In this document: positions 3,062 to 16,390 of the stretch, one piece after another
How the letters are laid out: each line of letters opens with the position of its first letter
Numbering within the stretch: the first letter of the stretch is position 1
Assembly: GCA_025201365.1 (NCBI GenBank)
Contig: JAIXMF010000123.1
Location: forward strand, 1 to 35,716
Direction: 5' to 3'
Source of the DNA: Syncephalis plumigaleata
Lineage: Eukaryota > Zoopagomycota > Zoopagomycetes > Zoopagales > Piptocephalidaceae
DNA: 35,716 nucleotides
Notes under the pieces: generated by a model
Databases searched by the model: none
Told to the model about the DNA's origin: nothing
Seen by the model: only the letters and a program-made list of their open reading frames with translations
Position numbers and translations under genes: made by a program

Positions 3062-3207
3062 AGTAATAAATACGTATGAGTGTATATATGAGTGCCTAAT
3101 CGCAATAGCAAGAACAAAAAAGTGTAAAAAGAAAAATAAATGGATTAGATTGTTATCCAATCATCATTTTCTTCATGAATAACATTATGCTAAGTAAATC
3201 ACCACTA

Positions 3208-3236
3208 CAGGCTTTTTCCATCCAATTTGCGCAGTT
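3208..3236 (+). repeat. Left terminal inverted repeat, copy 1
   Basis: It begins CAGGC next to TA and shares TTTTTCCATCCAATTTGCGC with the inverted right end at 5163-5191. The first mismatches are at the fourth and fifth bases after the flanking TA. Confidence 0.72.
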
Positions 3237-3337
3237 AGCCATTTGTCTTTACGAATAAATAATAGTTATGCTAACACTTACAATTACCCTGTATTTTGGG
3301 GTGTAGATAGCGATAACTATCACGGATGAATTGTTAT

Positions 3338-3626
3338 TCATTGTTTGGTTCCCTCTTGATCTTGCTCATCATTTATTAAACGTTTAGAAGCAACGACACT
3401 TGGATGAAGGTGTGTTGGAACATCAGTTCCACTACGAAGGCAGTTGGTGATTTGAATGAAATCCAGACGAGCAACCATAACCCCGATTCCACAAACGATA
3501 CTCGTATCCTTTAACTTGCATGTCCTCTTAATCATTGTTTCGATGTGTGCATCTAATAGAATAATGGATTAGTATACTGTAATAAATATCAAAGTGTAAT
3601 GAAGTATACTTACCGTAAGGGATCAT
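3338..3626 (-). CDS. 75-aa protein of unknown function inside the TIR element
   Basis: Two exons (3626-3614 and 3552-3338) are joined across a 61-nt GT-AG intron (GTAAGT donor, TATTAG acceptor). The first exon holds only MIPY plus one base; the spliced protein continues DAHIETMIKRTCKLKD and includes CLRSGTDVPTHLHPSVVASK near residues 42-61. I do not recognise the family. It is supported as a real gene because a diverged copy at 13750-13957 keeps LRxGxxVPTxLHxSVxxSK, with many differences at third codon positions, and because a TATAAAAA motif (3778-3785, minus) lies about 150 bases upstream. It is read toward the left TIR. It has no obvious membrane segment or zinc site. An extra upstream exon cannot be ruled out. 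Confidence 0.6.
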
Positions 3627-3777
3627 GACAAGTAGTAGGACACTTTCTCATTGATAGTGTGGGAGCTATGGTTGCTCGATTTGCTCAAGCACAATGTGTA
3701 GGCGATATACAATAAGGTAGTGTGAGTAGAGTGTAATAGGGACGATTGAACTGGAAGATGAAGATAATAGATGCGTC

Positions 3778-3785
3778 TTTTTATA
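3778..3785 (-). promoter_or_regulatory. TATA-like box for the 75-aa gene
   Basis: TATAAAAA on the minus strand, about 150 bases before the ATG at 3626. Assigned by sequence and position only. Confidence 0.4.
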
Positions 3786-4017
3786 ATTGTGGCATGTTAG
3801 TAGCGCTAACTGCAGGGATCTATTGTGCAAGAGTGAAGACGCTCATTCAGATACATACAGGAAGGATGAATCTATTGTGACAAGCAGTGTCATTGACAAC
3901 ACAATGCAGTAAGATTCGTGTCATCTAATGTCATTGTAGCAAAGTTACAATGGTGCAATGCCGCTTAGAACACAACAATCAATAAGAGCAAATAAATACT
4001 AATACTAATTGACATGT

Positions 4018-4385
4018 TTGTTATTCGTGCCTACTGCATTTCCCTTCCCTTTCCTTTACTTCTTTACCAATGCTGCCTTCTTAGTGCCAATTACATTCCA
4101 CTTGTCATTTAAACAATACACATATTCTTAGCCTTGACTACGTTCCACTTGACGTTGACTTCTTTCACATACTGTCTTATTCGTGCCAACCTCGTTTCCC
4201 TGTCATTTTCCTTACCAATAAATAGTAAGTGCCTTCTTTGTGTCAACTACATTCCACTTGTCAGTAAACAACACACGTCTACTTCCTCTTAACTATATGC
4301 TAGTTATTCCTCTTTCTTCTATTTACTTGTTTACTTTCTCAGTAATACGCGTCTTCTTCGTGTCATTCGTATTCCACTTACTTCC
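4018..4385. repeat. Degenerate C/T-rich tandem repeats within TIR element copy 1
   Basis: Units built on CTTCTTxGTGyCAAyTACATTCC-ACTTGTCA recur at about 4074-4110, 4231-4265 and 4350-4380, with partial units near 4020-4045, 4134-4160 and 4176-4200. Several are followed by AACAAyACAC. The strand is strongly pyrimidine-rich until about 4830, which creates long hydrophobic but non-genic open frames. Nothing coding is seen from 3790 to 5160. Confidence 0.55.
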
Positions 4386-5162
4386 TCTTTCACTTTAACA
4401 TACACATTCCCAATAGCAGCTATTCTGCCATACTATCTCTATGCCGTTTATTTATCTCTTTGTTTTCCTCTTGCTCTAAACTATCTACATGCTCACTTGT
4501 CGTTATTATTACTATACCTATAAGCATTGTTTATTGTTCGTTCTAGTCCTTTGTTTTCTATCACTGTCCTGCTTATTTATCGATGTTTAAGCGTTTACTG
4601 TTCTCGTTGTAATATGTACCTTTTACTTTTACCACTCTTTTCCGTCATCTGTTTGTATGCCACCATTACGTCATGCTTTTATTTGTATTTTATTTGTTTA
4701 CTGCCATCTCCATACTCTATTCACATACAAGCATACATTGCTTCTTCAAATAAACTGGCATACGTGTTCATGCACCCTTCCTTGTTCATTCCTTGCTCGT
4801 TCGTGACAAGTCAGTCATTCTACTAACTACTACTTGTTTATTATATTGTTTATCGTGTATTCTATTTGTTCACTCGTTGCTCTCTATGCACTCAATTGTA
4901 AGTACTATCATCATAACTTATCTATCATACTAGTTTATTGTTACTTGTAAGTACATGACATGGCAATATCCAACTATACTAGTACACTTGTATCGTTTAC
5001 CTTATAGAATTGATGATGATAGTTATCGCTATCAATAAAGGATCCATTACTAATACTGAATTGTTATTATTATCATGCTGTGTCAATTGGCATTTCTATG
5101 GTGATAATGGTGTTAACAATTGTGTTAATCTATTTGTTAATAAACTGCAAAAGTGAAAGGAT

Positions 5163-5191
5163 AAATGCGCAAATTGGATGGAAAAACACTG
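5163..5191 (-). repeat. Right terminal inverted repeat, copy 1
   Basis: This is the inverted counterpart of 3208-3236, ending CACTG next to TA (5192-5193). The adjoining subterminal sequence (5113-5147, TTAACAATTGTGTTAATC and TTTGTTAATAAAC) is also found at the right end of copy 2. Confidence 0.72.
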
Positions 5192-13329: not shown

Positions 13330-13639
13330 TGAGGTACGGGTTGGTTGACTCGTGTCATGGGGAGTGGAGTCTCTCCGGTCCCGGATGTATTATTCTGGGT
13401 AGTGCTCGACATAGCTTCGCTCACGTATAGTATCTCGCTGTTGAACTCTCAACAACCTCTTGCACTCGCAATAACACTAGACAATAAAACGATATGATAA
13501 CTCGAACGATGATTCTTTTATTCATAATAATGTGTACTGGTATTTATACTAAAGCCTAAGTAGCGGAGCGCTACAAGCTTATCAACTTTTACCCAGGTAT
13601 TTATCTATATTCCAGCGGCGACCGGGTTATAGTCCCACA
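13330..13639. mobile_element. Probable solo LTR
   Basis: A 310-base segment starts TGAGGTACGGG and ends GGTTATAGTCCCACA, so it has TG...CA termini. It is flanked on both sides by TATA (13326-13329 and 13640-13643), which could be a 4-bp target duplication. It is visibly richer in G and C than its surroundings (GGAGTGGAGTCTCTCCGG, CAGCGGCGACCGGG) and contains an AATAAA at about 13483. No retrotransposon coding sequence adjoins it, hence a solo LTR. The TATA flank in AT-rich DNA is weak evidence. The 3' end of muskelin, with an AATAAA at 13240, lies just before it. Confidence 0.45.
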
Positions 13640-13749
13640 TATATACTAATGAATACTACATGACTCTTCCATCCAATTTGGGCAGTTAGACTGTTATTTT
13701 TATGAATAAATAATAAAACTTACGTATTTAGATGTAGAAGCGTTAACCA

Positions 13750-13957
13750 TCACGGATAAGCTGTTTCTTGTTGTCCATCATTTCTTGAACATTTAGAAGT
13801 AATGACACTTTGATGTAGTTGCGTTGGAACACCATTTCCATTGCGAAGACTGAGAATAATCTGAATAACATTCAGACATGCTGCCATATCCCGATTCCAT
13901 ACACGCTACTCGAATCCTTTACCATTCATGTCATCTTTACAATTCTGATGTGTGCAT
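13750..13957 (-). pseudogene. Decayed copy of the 75-aa element gene
   Basis: This aligns with exon 2 of the 75-aa gene at 3338-3552. It keeps the intron acceptor (TATTAG before 13957), GATTCGAGT and TATGGAATCGGG, and then, in a shifted frame, SLRNGNGVPTQLHQSVITSK. A one-base length difference between these blocks (about 13870-13890) breaks the frame, an in-frame stop occurs near the start, and the upstream donor site and first exon are not intact. The retained protein similarity shows that the ancestral element carried this gene. Confidence 0.6.
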
Positions 13958-14169
13958 CTAATAGAATAATGAATTAGTATATTGTTATAGATTGTACTCA
14001 TATTAAGAAGGCATGACAAGTGACAGTAGGATATCTCGTCAATTAGAAAGACTTGAACACCATGCTTCATTGTTATCCACACTTGTGTATGATTTATTTG
14101 TGTATTCTTGATTAAAATAACGTCATCGTATTTCTCTACTCCATATCGTCTTTCTTATTCCATTCCACT

Positions 14170-15795
14170 ATGTCTACTACTACTGCGGCTACTACTGAAA
14201 TATCGAGTAATCCCAACTCGTCTTGTAGATTACTTGATTGTCTGAATAGTCTTCCATGTCATGACCAGCATGTCTTCCGTAGTCAACTTGACCATATCGA
14301 ATTATTGCGTTTATCAGCATGTTGTCGCTCGTTAAGAAGCAGTATTCGAAATGATAGAGTATTATGGCATGAACTATACCATAGGGATTTCCTATCAGGA
14401 GCGTATTATGCTAAAGAAATGGATTTTGTATTATGGTGTATACGCACGGATGTCAACAATCCATGTACATCGGATAAACGAGCCGATCTACTAGAGAATG
14501 TGGACTGGTACAACACATATCGTCGACGAGTGAGCACCGAGAATAATTGGCGATATGGACGATGCAAGACCACGCGTATCGATATGAAGGCTGACAAGGG
14601 TGGATCATGTCATAGCACAGAAGCTGAGGATAATAGTTCAGATATCATAGAAGAAAATTGCTCAGACGAAACACCAAATTTTACTTTAGAATATTTGCCA
14701 CATTCAAATCTTAGATCAGGCAACAATATTGTACATAGCAGCACATTCTTTACATCGCCAAATATTCTTCTGCTTGATGCTGGTAATGAAGATGAGGATG
14801 ATTATGTCTGGGGTGACCATTACATAGCTGTAATTCCTAGTGCAATCAAGAGCGATATCAACTCTAATGTAAAAATACTCTCTCGCAAATATGGTGGCGT
14901 TATCACTACATTTGATGTTCCAGTACCATATGAAGTCAAGGCAATCAAAGGGAAATGGGTATTATTAGTAAACAAATCACTAGGGTCATTCAGGAATTTG
15001 CGAGTTTGTAAGTGTGATAATTGTACAATGATGCAATATAACTAGTACTAATAATCAATACATTCAGCCGATATAATGGTATTTGATATAGATAATAGTA
15101 TCATGTGTCCAGGAAGCATCGATGATACATGGCATGCGACATGTTTCTATAAAACAACCAATAATACAGCAATAGTATACACGGCAAGACTAGTCGATGA
15201 TGATGATGTGGGTCGTATTGAATGGGCATTATACCAGTTCTCAAGCAATAATCCTGTTGTACAATTGCGAAGCGGTTGGTTTCAAGTACCTGAAGGGATA
15301 CCAGAAATATCAATATATCTTGCTCACAACCCATACGATTCGTATATGATAATTGAGTTATATAGTCATCCTAGTTATGATCCATACATAATTCATAGTG
15401 TAGAATCCAGTGGTCAAAGTCATACTCCACGTAATTGCTCCATTATGACTGACCTACATATACCTATCCCATTATTAAGGACTGGATGCGATTATTCAAT
15501 ACTTGGTCCCCGACCAACAAAAATATGGACAGACTTATCCTACAATGACGATCAAGTATTACAAATACCGGGTACAACTTTCATTAGAAATCTTATTGGA
15601 GATCTTTATATATTTACTACGTATTGTGATTATATGAAAAGGCGATTACTTGTAGACATCAATACAAAGAAAGTAATACGCAGATTGAAAGCACCAGCTA
15701 GGGACGAACAACTGGATGATTATGCAATGGTTGGTACGATACGTAGTCTTGATGAAAAACGTACGCTAGTAATACAAGAATACGGTGAATTATAA
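14170..15795 (+). CDS. F-box-like protein carried in TIR element copy 2
   Basis: Two exons (14170-15007 and 15068-15795) joined across a 60-nt GT-AG intron give 521 residues. Residues of about 18-75 fit an F-box: CRLLDCLNSLP, HVFRSQLDHIELLRLSACC, RSLRSSIRNDRVLWHELYHRDF, with the usual leucines and the LW pair. F-box proteins link substrates to SKP1-cullin-1 ubiquitin ligases. The remainder has no recognised repeats; it has an acidic patch (EDNSSDIIEENCSDETPN, GNEDEDDYVWGDHY) and many beta-type segments such as HNPYDSYMIIELYSH, so a propeller-like C-terminal half is possible but unproven. It is intact, with a normal intron. Lying between the TIRs, it is probably cargo or a captured host gene rather than a transposition gene. 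The F-box call rests on pattern only. Confidence 0.66.
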
Positions 15796-16298
15796 CAAAT
15801 AGCAATAAATCATACTATACTAGTAGATAAGCAGTGTTTATACATCATTAAACCATAACACATGCTAATGCTTTCTATGAACTGGATGATTAATCGAATA
15901 AATCAACTATAGTAGCAATTGAGACATCAAGCTGTACAAACTGATGAATGCTTCTCAATGCATAGAGGATGTTGCTCGGTAGCACATGTACTACGTCATC
16001 ATTTCATTCTGCTTGATTGAAGATTGCTATCTGAATACTCTCGAATGCCATTATAACAATGCACTGAATAAAACAAACATCCATGTTGTCCTTTACTAAA
16101 TGTTCCTGTCAATTTATCATAGCTTGTTAAAACTATTGTAATATATGATATCGCGATCATTAACATCTCTCTCAACTGCTAGGATCATAACAACTACTCA
16201 ATAATAATAGCAATGCGATAATAGTGTTAACAATTGTGCAAATCTATTTATTAATAAACACAAACATTTAACAGTGTTAATCGGTTGGAAAAACACTG
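15796..16298. other. Right arm of TIR element copy 2, no gene seen
   Basis: About 500 bases of AT-rich sequence. The last 100 bases match the right end of copy 1. No open frame here looks genic. Confidence 0.6.
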
Positions 16299-16390
16299 TA
16301 GCAAACAGTGACGTTTTTCTCGTCTTTTCCCGTTTATTGTTTGTTTGCTTGTTTTAACATTTAACACTTACTCTACTACCAGTTGTGACT

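Follow-up and report, generated by a model that had tools for sequence, protein, structure and literature searches.

Fanzor is a eukaryotic TnpB-type RNA-guided nuclease, and Pack elements mostly carry gene fragments. The subject here is a 2,640 bp element at positions 13659–16298 of a contig of the fungus Syncephalis plumigaleata (GenBank assembly GCA_025201365.1, contig JAIXMF010000123.1, here C28; all 35,716 nucleotides were analysed and are called the window), in which an F-box gene lies between terminal inverted repeats (TIRs). The accessible text of Saito et al. (2023; PMC10432273) describes ghost Spu-1 elements in Spizellomyces punctatus, which have Fanzor inverted repeats without a Fanzor frame and outnumber the Fanzor loci; a second element of the window (E1) and short elements in this genome are alike. 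The Spu-1 ghosts are given there as about 550 nt with a conserved omegaRNA, whereas the element here has an F-box gene, with its frame mostly kept, and an end that is the least conserved part. The same text reports 11 Fanzor loci in Spizellomyces with further genes between the repeats, including Gypsy/Ty3, and F-box genes are unmentioned in it. Fanzor1 in Tc/mariner, as presented in the available part of Bao and Jurka (2013; PMC3627910), includes Fanzor1-only elements whose TIRs are of the mariner type and whose target sites are TA, as here; the F-box cargo present here is not among the features described in that part. Pack-MULE and Pack-TYPE elements (Gisby and Catoni, 2022, PMC8903248, accessible text) are likewise non-autonomous TIR elements with host coding DNA. 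In contrast to Pack-TYPE elements, one gene is carried here, with at least 139 matches and exon 1 frames that are mostly open. An F-box family is also tied to Tc1/mariner in Caenorhabditis (the F-box A2 genes; Almeida et al., 2025, PMC12062965, accessible text), where an F-box A2 gene took a transposase helix–turn–helix (HTH) domain, whereas here the transposon carries a whole F-box gene. The wtf driver family of Schizosaccharomyces, according to the available part of PMC9562144, is alike in being diversified by non-allelic gene conversion, although the protein is different, the units here are TIR-bounded and drive is not among the features seen here. No title or abstract among the matches listed from the open-access literature reports a fungal transposon with an F-box gene, or Fanzor together with F-box.

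An initial annotation, made from the letters of the window, proposed a Tc1/mariner-like TIR element with an F-box gene as cargo, and this is supported by TA target sites, CAG ends and a DDE_3 transposase element with similar ends. The element is not a one-off capture; it belongs to a multicopy family. The earlier view is also extended, as the element is a derivative of a Fanzor element, its F-box exon 1 has at least 139 matches in the genome and its copies are mosaic. What was first proposed is real, and is part of something broader, a ghost Fanzor/Tc1-type family with F-box cargo, diversified by apparent gene conversion.

The explanation that we consider likely is that 13659–16298 belongs, as a single copy, to a multicopy family of non-autonomous Tc1/mariner-type elements that descend from a Fanzor-carrying transposon and have lost most of its Fanzor gene. 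The interior would be filled by an F-box gene, probably taken from a tandem array of the host together with the spacer that separates it from the following gene, and lying in the orientation opposite to the Fanzor remnant. Copies would have spread as TIR elements through a Tc1-type transposase acting in trans, for which the C39:1855-6375 family is a candidate. The interiors of copies already placed would be overwritten from other copies by ectopic gene conversion or gap repair, the enzymology being putative, and this would produce the pattern that is observed, different mosaic F-box genes in alleles of one insertion site. Selection would tend to keep the frame open, and would allow or favour change in the C-terminal, presumably substrate-binding, part. 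Judging from the F-box, the products most likely act as substrate adaptors of Skp1–Cullin–F-box (SCF) complexes.

The assembly comprises 32.6 Mb in 383 contigs. Read directly from the letters, the element has TA on either side: TA (13657–13658) is followed at 13659 by CATGACTCTTCCATCCAATTTG, and at the 3′ end TTAATCGGTTGGAAAAACACTG has its last base at 16298, before TA at 16299–16300. E1 occupies 3208–5191, also between two TAs, with CAGGCTTTTTCCATCCAATTTGCGC after the left TA from 3208 and GCGCAAATTGGATGGAAAAACACTG having its last base at 5191, before the right TA. The inverted ends are common to both, as the initial annotation claimed for these two loci beside TA, and the boundaries that it gave for the F-box element stand. 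The core end motif (up to three mismatches) has four matches in the window (forward at 3214 and 13665, reverse at 5167 and 16274), where 0.05 are expected and where four were reached in 0 of 100 shuffles. Identity between E1 and the F-box element is 79 % for 3197–3264 with 13648–13715, 91 % for 3542–3587 with 13947–13992, and 91 % for 5103–5145 with 16217–16259. The interiors, which were thought to be different, mostly are; the exception is about 218 bp by the left TIR that are homologous (78 %) and hold a minus-strand remnant of the Fanzor C-terminal end. The features are as follows.

13657–13658, no strand: left TA target-site copy (from the sequence; 18 of 40 copies have TA at either end)
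13659–13691, plus strand: 5′ TIR and subterminal sequence (from end comparison, aligned copies and motif search)
13776–13989, minus strand: what is left of the C-terminal coding end of Fanzor (the zinc ribbon's second half, WNRDMAACLN motif), directed toward the 5′ TIR
14170–15007, plus strand: exon 1 of the F-box gene, with the F-box at about residues 34–71 (from splicing and translation, and Pfam)
15008–15067, plus strand: intron of the F-box gene, GTAAGT...CAG (from splicing and translation)
15068–15795, plus strand: exon 2 of the F-box gene, the variable C-terminal part, with final EYGEL (from splicing and translation)
15803–16095, plus strand: segment homologous to sequence after and before F-box genes of the tandem array L042 (88.6 % over 236 bp; 73.6 % over 197 bp, E 5e-31)
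16217–16259, plus strand: 3′ subterminal sequence common with E1 (91 % identity)
16272–16298, minus strand: 3′ TIR (from end scoring and motif search)
16299–16300, no strand: right TA target-site copy (from the sequence)
3208–5191, no strand: E1, interpreted as a Fanzor element with an internal deletion (ghost-like), in the same TIR family (from sequence comparison)
3367–3584, minus strand: Fanzor C-terminal remnant in E1, frame broken (from sequence comparison)

A query with the element DNA gave 937 candidates, the best 40 of which were scored and taken with their flanks as the copy set; ends were called at a score of at least 14, each above the best of 60 shuffles. Both ends are present in 21 of these full-element copies and one end in eight, and TA stands on both sides in 18 of the 21 two-ended copies (18 of 40 overall). 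Among aligned copies the 5′ homology begins at the TIR (typically CAGGACTTTTCCAACC) by TA, and the flanks outside it differ. The F-box gene has a constant place and orientation across the scored copies, and is accompanied by the Fanzor remnant and the 3′ segment. The question of whether the repeats are paired elsewhere is therefore answered positively. The opposite proposal, that two unrelated repeats flank a host F-box gene by chance, could draw on the 11 copies without recognisable ends; it is refuted by paired ends in the same arrangement at independent loci, to which the accompanying Fanzor remnant and 3′ segment are added, and its probability is considered negligible. Genome-wide, the end motif (up to three mismatches) has 571 forward and 583 reverse matches, and the reversed-pattern control has none in either direction. 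Among the matches listed, many neighbouring pairs are about 0.2, 0.6 or 1.1 kb apart, therefore short family members are common. With the protein of F-box exon 1 as the query there are at least 139 matches (139 scored of 313 candidates, haplotypes included), 15 with an in-frame stop and 124 with none.

The F-box gene (14170–15007 joined to 15068–15795) encodes 521 amino acids (aa), and its first description as a well-formed two-exon F-box-like gene is borne out. The profile hidden Markov model comparison that had been proposed for the protein gives a Pfam F-box-like match with E 4e-5 and 23.7 bits, 0.6 below the curated cut-off of 24.3; in the whole-genome scan the domain reaches 26.4 bits, above the cut-off, and it is matched at E ≤ 0.01 in 11 of 12 copies scanned. 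Comparison of the fold with PDB by exon profile gave nothing at E ≤ 1 for exon 1 and an unconvincing best match for exon 2 (E 0.23). As to the source of the cargo, locus L042 (C85, with matching places on C1) has two head-to-tail F-box genes with 58 % and 50 % protein identity to the window copy. The segment at 15803–16095 matches the sequence after the first of these genes and also the sequence just before it, to about a dozen bp from the ATG. On the simplest reading, the cargo is probably one gene with the spacer to the next, captured from a tandem F-box array. In terms of the Pack-TYPE definition, host-derived coding DNA between TIRs, the array shares both gene and spacer with the element, and we infer the direction of transfer. 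No TIR pair is recognisable at L042 (best 5′-end score 12.0, background 11.0) and the Fanzor remnant region has no match there; a forward 3′-end match (12.0 against 9.5) near position 4540 lies within the second gene. A neighbouring F-box gene at C1:579099-579911 (also at L042) has just 54 % identity in exon 1 to the window copy and may be an ancient paralogue of the host.

The relation to Fanzor is seen first in an E1-type element on C1, where a frame matches Parasitella parasitica Fanzor 1 (PpFz1, PDB 9cf0) as an N-terminal fragment (E 4.7e-7). This N-terminal piece has 43 matches in the genome, 27 of them inside open frames of 614–724 aa. Sequence from the right half of E1 is found immediately upstream of where Fanzor starts at 12 or more loci, the E1 end being reached in 11 (best 40 candidates), so that the TIRs are common with Fanzor-bearing elements; among the matches listed, ends with no mismatch also lie within 4 kb of Fanzor matches on C4, C23, C2 and C1. 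Because of this position of its right-half pieces, E1 is most readily explained as a Fanzor element with an internal deletion (ghost-like). In both E1 and the F-box element the minus-strand C-terminal end of Fanzor persists by the left TIR, a sequence remnant typically read as RCTHQNCKDDMNGKGFEYRVWNRDMAACLN. The window remnant has an in-frame TAG near 13906, and the frame is open in 35 of 44 motif matches among the loci examined. When remnant readings were searched against PDB, the unmodified reading of L041 had SpuFz1 (8gkh; E 0.0053) and PpFz1 (9cf0; E 0.012) as its sole matches, that of L045 had PpFz1 alone (E 0.036), and that of L008 gave E 0.083 and 0.43. A profile of 13 readings gave E 0.011 and 0.039 for two Fanzor 1 entries, with a ribosomal protein third (0.1), and a hand-made composite gave E 7e-6. 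Although the scores are weak, the same pair of Fanzor 1 structures keeps coming up, and the alignments fall close to the C-terminus of each. Judged on these alignments, the F-box element is one that keeps only the C-terminal end of Fanzor by its 5′ TIR, the F-box gene replacing the rest. A small Fanzor-tail protein under selection was considered and dropped, as codon-position bias is absent from the remnant in 40 copies, open though the frame often is.

Within the set of 40 copies, eight pairs agree in both flanks and are treated as haplotypes. Pooled over these pairs, 335 of 16,237 flanking sites differ (2.1 %), against 1,945 of 20,108 interior sites (9.7 %), and the interior excess is significant in seven of the eight (p < 1e-12). 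The divergence between alleles starts near the TIRs, in blocks as low as 60–80 % identity. When 288 intervals of 150 bp from the paired alleles were compared with the 40 loci, 117 intervals were closer to another locus than to their own allele by more than two points, a count that is biased, as the best of many loci is set against one allele. More telling is that the own allele matches at less than 85 % in 86 intervals, in 36 of which another locus matches at 85 % or more. In the 24 copies with intact frames, distances in the first two segments of the coding sequence are uncorrelated with those in the last three (|r| ≤ 0.17, low variation in the first two depressing r), middle and last segments give r 0.06–0.37, and neighbouring segments reach 0.72. 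Since interiors diverge more than flanks and distant segments are nearly uncorrelated, these patterns point to ectopic gene conversion confined between the TIRs. Along the 5′ region (26 copies with a 5′ end) the minor-allele frequency is 0.21 at the TIR and declines to 0.03–0.04 near the ATG, as would be expected if conversion tracts were bound to stop within the element. In five of the eight pairs the frames of both alleles are 521–530 aa long; L018 is intact while its second-haplotype copy at C351:614239 has three stops, so that an intact and a broken copy can be alleles of one site.

Mosaic alleles of this kind might also be artefacts of assembling or polishing a high-copy repeat. The repeat is abundant and 80–93 % identical, and one allele is on a contig of less than 50 kb in seven of the eight pairs, all of which would suit an artefact. 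However, L004 and L005 are on contigs of 506 kb and 976 kb (with an interior excess of 3.2 %, the smallest after the 0.3 % of L027/L033), contigs of up to 3 Mb in a 383-contig assembly suggest long reads, and both frames are open in five pairs; it is improbable that the pattern has this origin.

A script that spliced and translated the copies gave frames of 521–530 aa ending in EYGEL or EYGGL in 24 of the 40, having picked the splice sites that gave the longest frame (GTAAGT was used in just 10 of the 24). In a splice-independent check both exons are open in 26 of 40, including three copies without the intron stretch. As the 24 copies were selected as intact, their lack of stops is not evidence; the weight lies with the 26 of 40 copies and with the 124 of 139 exon 1 matches. 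The intron stretch is absent from L038–L040, and in five of the 139 matches the exon 1 frame extends to 530–555 aa (C54:7334, C351:758475, C318:266679, C321:14889 and C157:26849). Under neutral simulation at the observed divergence a copy would carry 8.3 stops and 0 of 1,000 were intact (1.2 % at half the divergence), with the limits that this divergence is taken from the intact copies themselves and that mosaic sharing makes copies non-independent. The mean ratio of non-synonymous to synonymous substitution (dN/dS, NG86) is 0.62 over 276 pairs; calibration on the non-coding mutation spectrum gives an omega of 0.74, lowest (0.64) in the F-box end. It appears that the reading frame tends to be protected and that amino-acid change is barely restrained, which could reflect either a recognition domain that is diversifying or weak constraint; the mosaic nature of the copies stands in the way of formally testing for positive selection.

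These figures also bear on whether the F-box gene is a passive passenger, of no use to element or host, its open frames reflecting recent amplification. In keeping with that, missense relative to silent change is close to neutral, codon positions vary alike, and broken copies occur (the exon 1 stops above, and 14 of 40 copies failing the both-exons test). A neutral frame would carry about eight stops, yet 26 of 40 copies are open, a counter-point subject to the limits just given for the simulation, and a passenger gene is thought unlikely.

For mobility, a DDE_3 transposase has 31 matches in the genome, five of them with equal scores, and three copies that were read have 2.2 kb in common at 100 %. 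The copy at C39:1855-6375 (L046, L049 and L050) is a 4.5-kb Tc1-type element with perfect 80-nt TIRs starting CAGGGTTTTTCCAACCAGTTGGC by TA and a 383-aa frame (DDE_3, E 1.5e-28); a second frame near its other end is HTH-like by eye. Its TIR is 77 % identical to the E1 end over 47 nt, and it is the best candidate for the helper transposase source. Searches with DDE_1 and HTH_Tnp_Tc5 gave no match and their controls were silent as well, so absence is not established. A second DDE_3 group (C1:572852) was set aside; it is nested in an E1-type element and its own ends look different by eye.

Joined flanks were tested for eight loci. For L008, L018, L021 and L040 the flanks on the second haplotype are 2.2–2.6 kb apart, as if occupied, with an F-box match listed for L018 and L040; L016 and L022 have no second place and L010 is ambiguous. 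The counterpart of L013 on C10 (L053, C10:500-780) was rejected as an empty site, as the letters show a deletion scar, in which the final 21 nt of the 3′ TIR survive and 60 nt are gone from the left flank. Such a scar could come from a break in the element or next to it, but a simple deletion would leave the same trace. As no true empty site is found among these eight loci, recent mobility of the F-box element is unsupported. It is possible, if less so than spread as TIR elements, that the elements are immobile relics of what is now a host gene family, the host keeping the F-box genes and diversifying them by gene conversion, and both the lack of a clean empty site and the poor conservation of the TIR relative to the region of the ATG would agree with this; the eight allelic pairs, being shared insertions by selection, are not counted in its favour. 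Dispersed single copies bounded by TIRs and TA, and the many ends in the wider family that still match without a mismatch, are less easily reconciled with a host family.

Besides the lack of a true empty site, a number of observations weigh against the explanation that we prefer. Recognisable ends are absent from 11 of the 40 copies, the interior excess is not significant in L027/L033 (p 0.064), codon positions vary almost equally (0.141, 0.121 and 0.132), and the F-box domain, though present, scores weakly. The C39 TIR is just 77 % like that of E1, and its transposase may be the wrong one. For Fanzor, the PDB scores of the remnant are individually weak, and the reading of L043 has an antibody chain first (E 0.1) and two Fanzors next (0.14–0.15). 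PF07282 has no match in the genome, Pfam gives nothing relevant for the 13 remnant readings, none of the top 40 matches to the E1 left end is at a Fanzor N-terminal locus, and no full Fanzor element was read from end to end.

In Fanzor loci the guide RNA derives from the end region (PMC10432273, accessible text), and the retained Fanzor tail with the TIR could in principle supply one here. An omegaRNA at the element end finds no support, since the one copy folded, that of the window, shows no more structure than shuffles (z 0.9) and conservation in the 5′ region is lowest at the TIR end; for the same reasons a guide-RNA role is kept as a bold reading only. On that reading Fanzor would act in trans, cutting F-box element sites under the guidance of an RNA derived from the Fanzor 3′ end and TIR that are retained, and the breaks would be repaired from other copies. 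An RNA-guided transposon nuclease would then drive the shuffling and homing of a ubiquitin-ligase adaptor family, and the variable F-box products would be of use to the element, for instance through the removal of silencing factors or as antidotes in a drive. This reading as a whole is held to be a long shot.

Other arrangements were noted. The larger TIR pairs at C2:215483-220958 and C1:1009562-1013746 are not accepted as autonomous copies, as their interiors are copia-type and LINE-type frames (by eye). The corresponding E1-type elements are L044 (C2:215450-221000), with the copia-type frame inside, and L045 (C1:1009530-1013780), with the LINE-type frame and an open Fanzor-tail reading at 3916–4104. 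Outward-facing F-box pairs about 10 kb apart (C356, C101 and C201) were considered as frames of large composite elements and rejected; no transposase was recognised by eye in the C356 and C101 gaps, for which no family search was made. The C101 gap (L043) has ribosomal-protein and seven-transmembrane-protein frames by eye, and the C356 gap (L041) has one 367-aa frame of a kind not recognised. In the window, an insertion of about 310 bp at 13330–13639 resembles a solo long terminal repeat by eye, with a TG start, a CA end and TATA on both sides; it is missing from the allelic contig C112 (L002), where the sequence is uninterrupted (by eye).

The F-box proteins may benefit the element, the host or neither of them. 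The family suggests a route by which a dispersed F-box family can arise, with a gene in a short TIR element multiplied to at least 100 places and reshuffled by conversion between the TIRs while its frame is mostly kept. It extends the idea of ghost Fanzor elements to elements with gene cargo, and allows a test of whether the breaks that would drive conversion come from Fanzor or from the transposase. Through copies that appear to swap pieces, the host has come to possess an F-box gene family that is large and varied.

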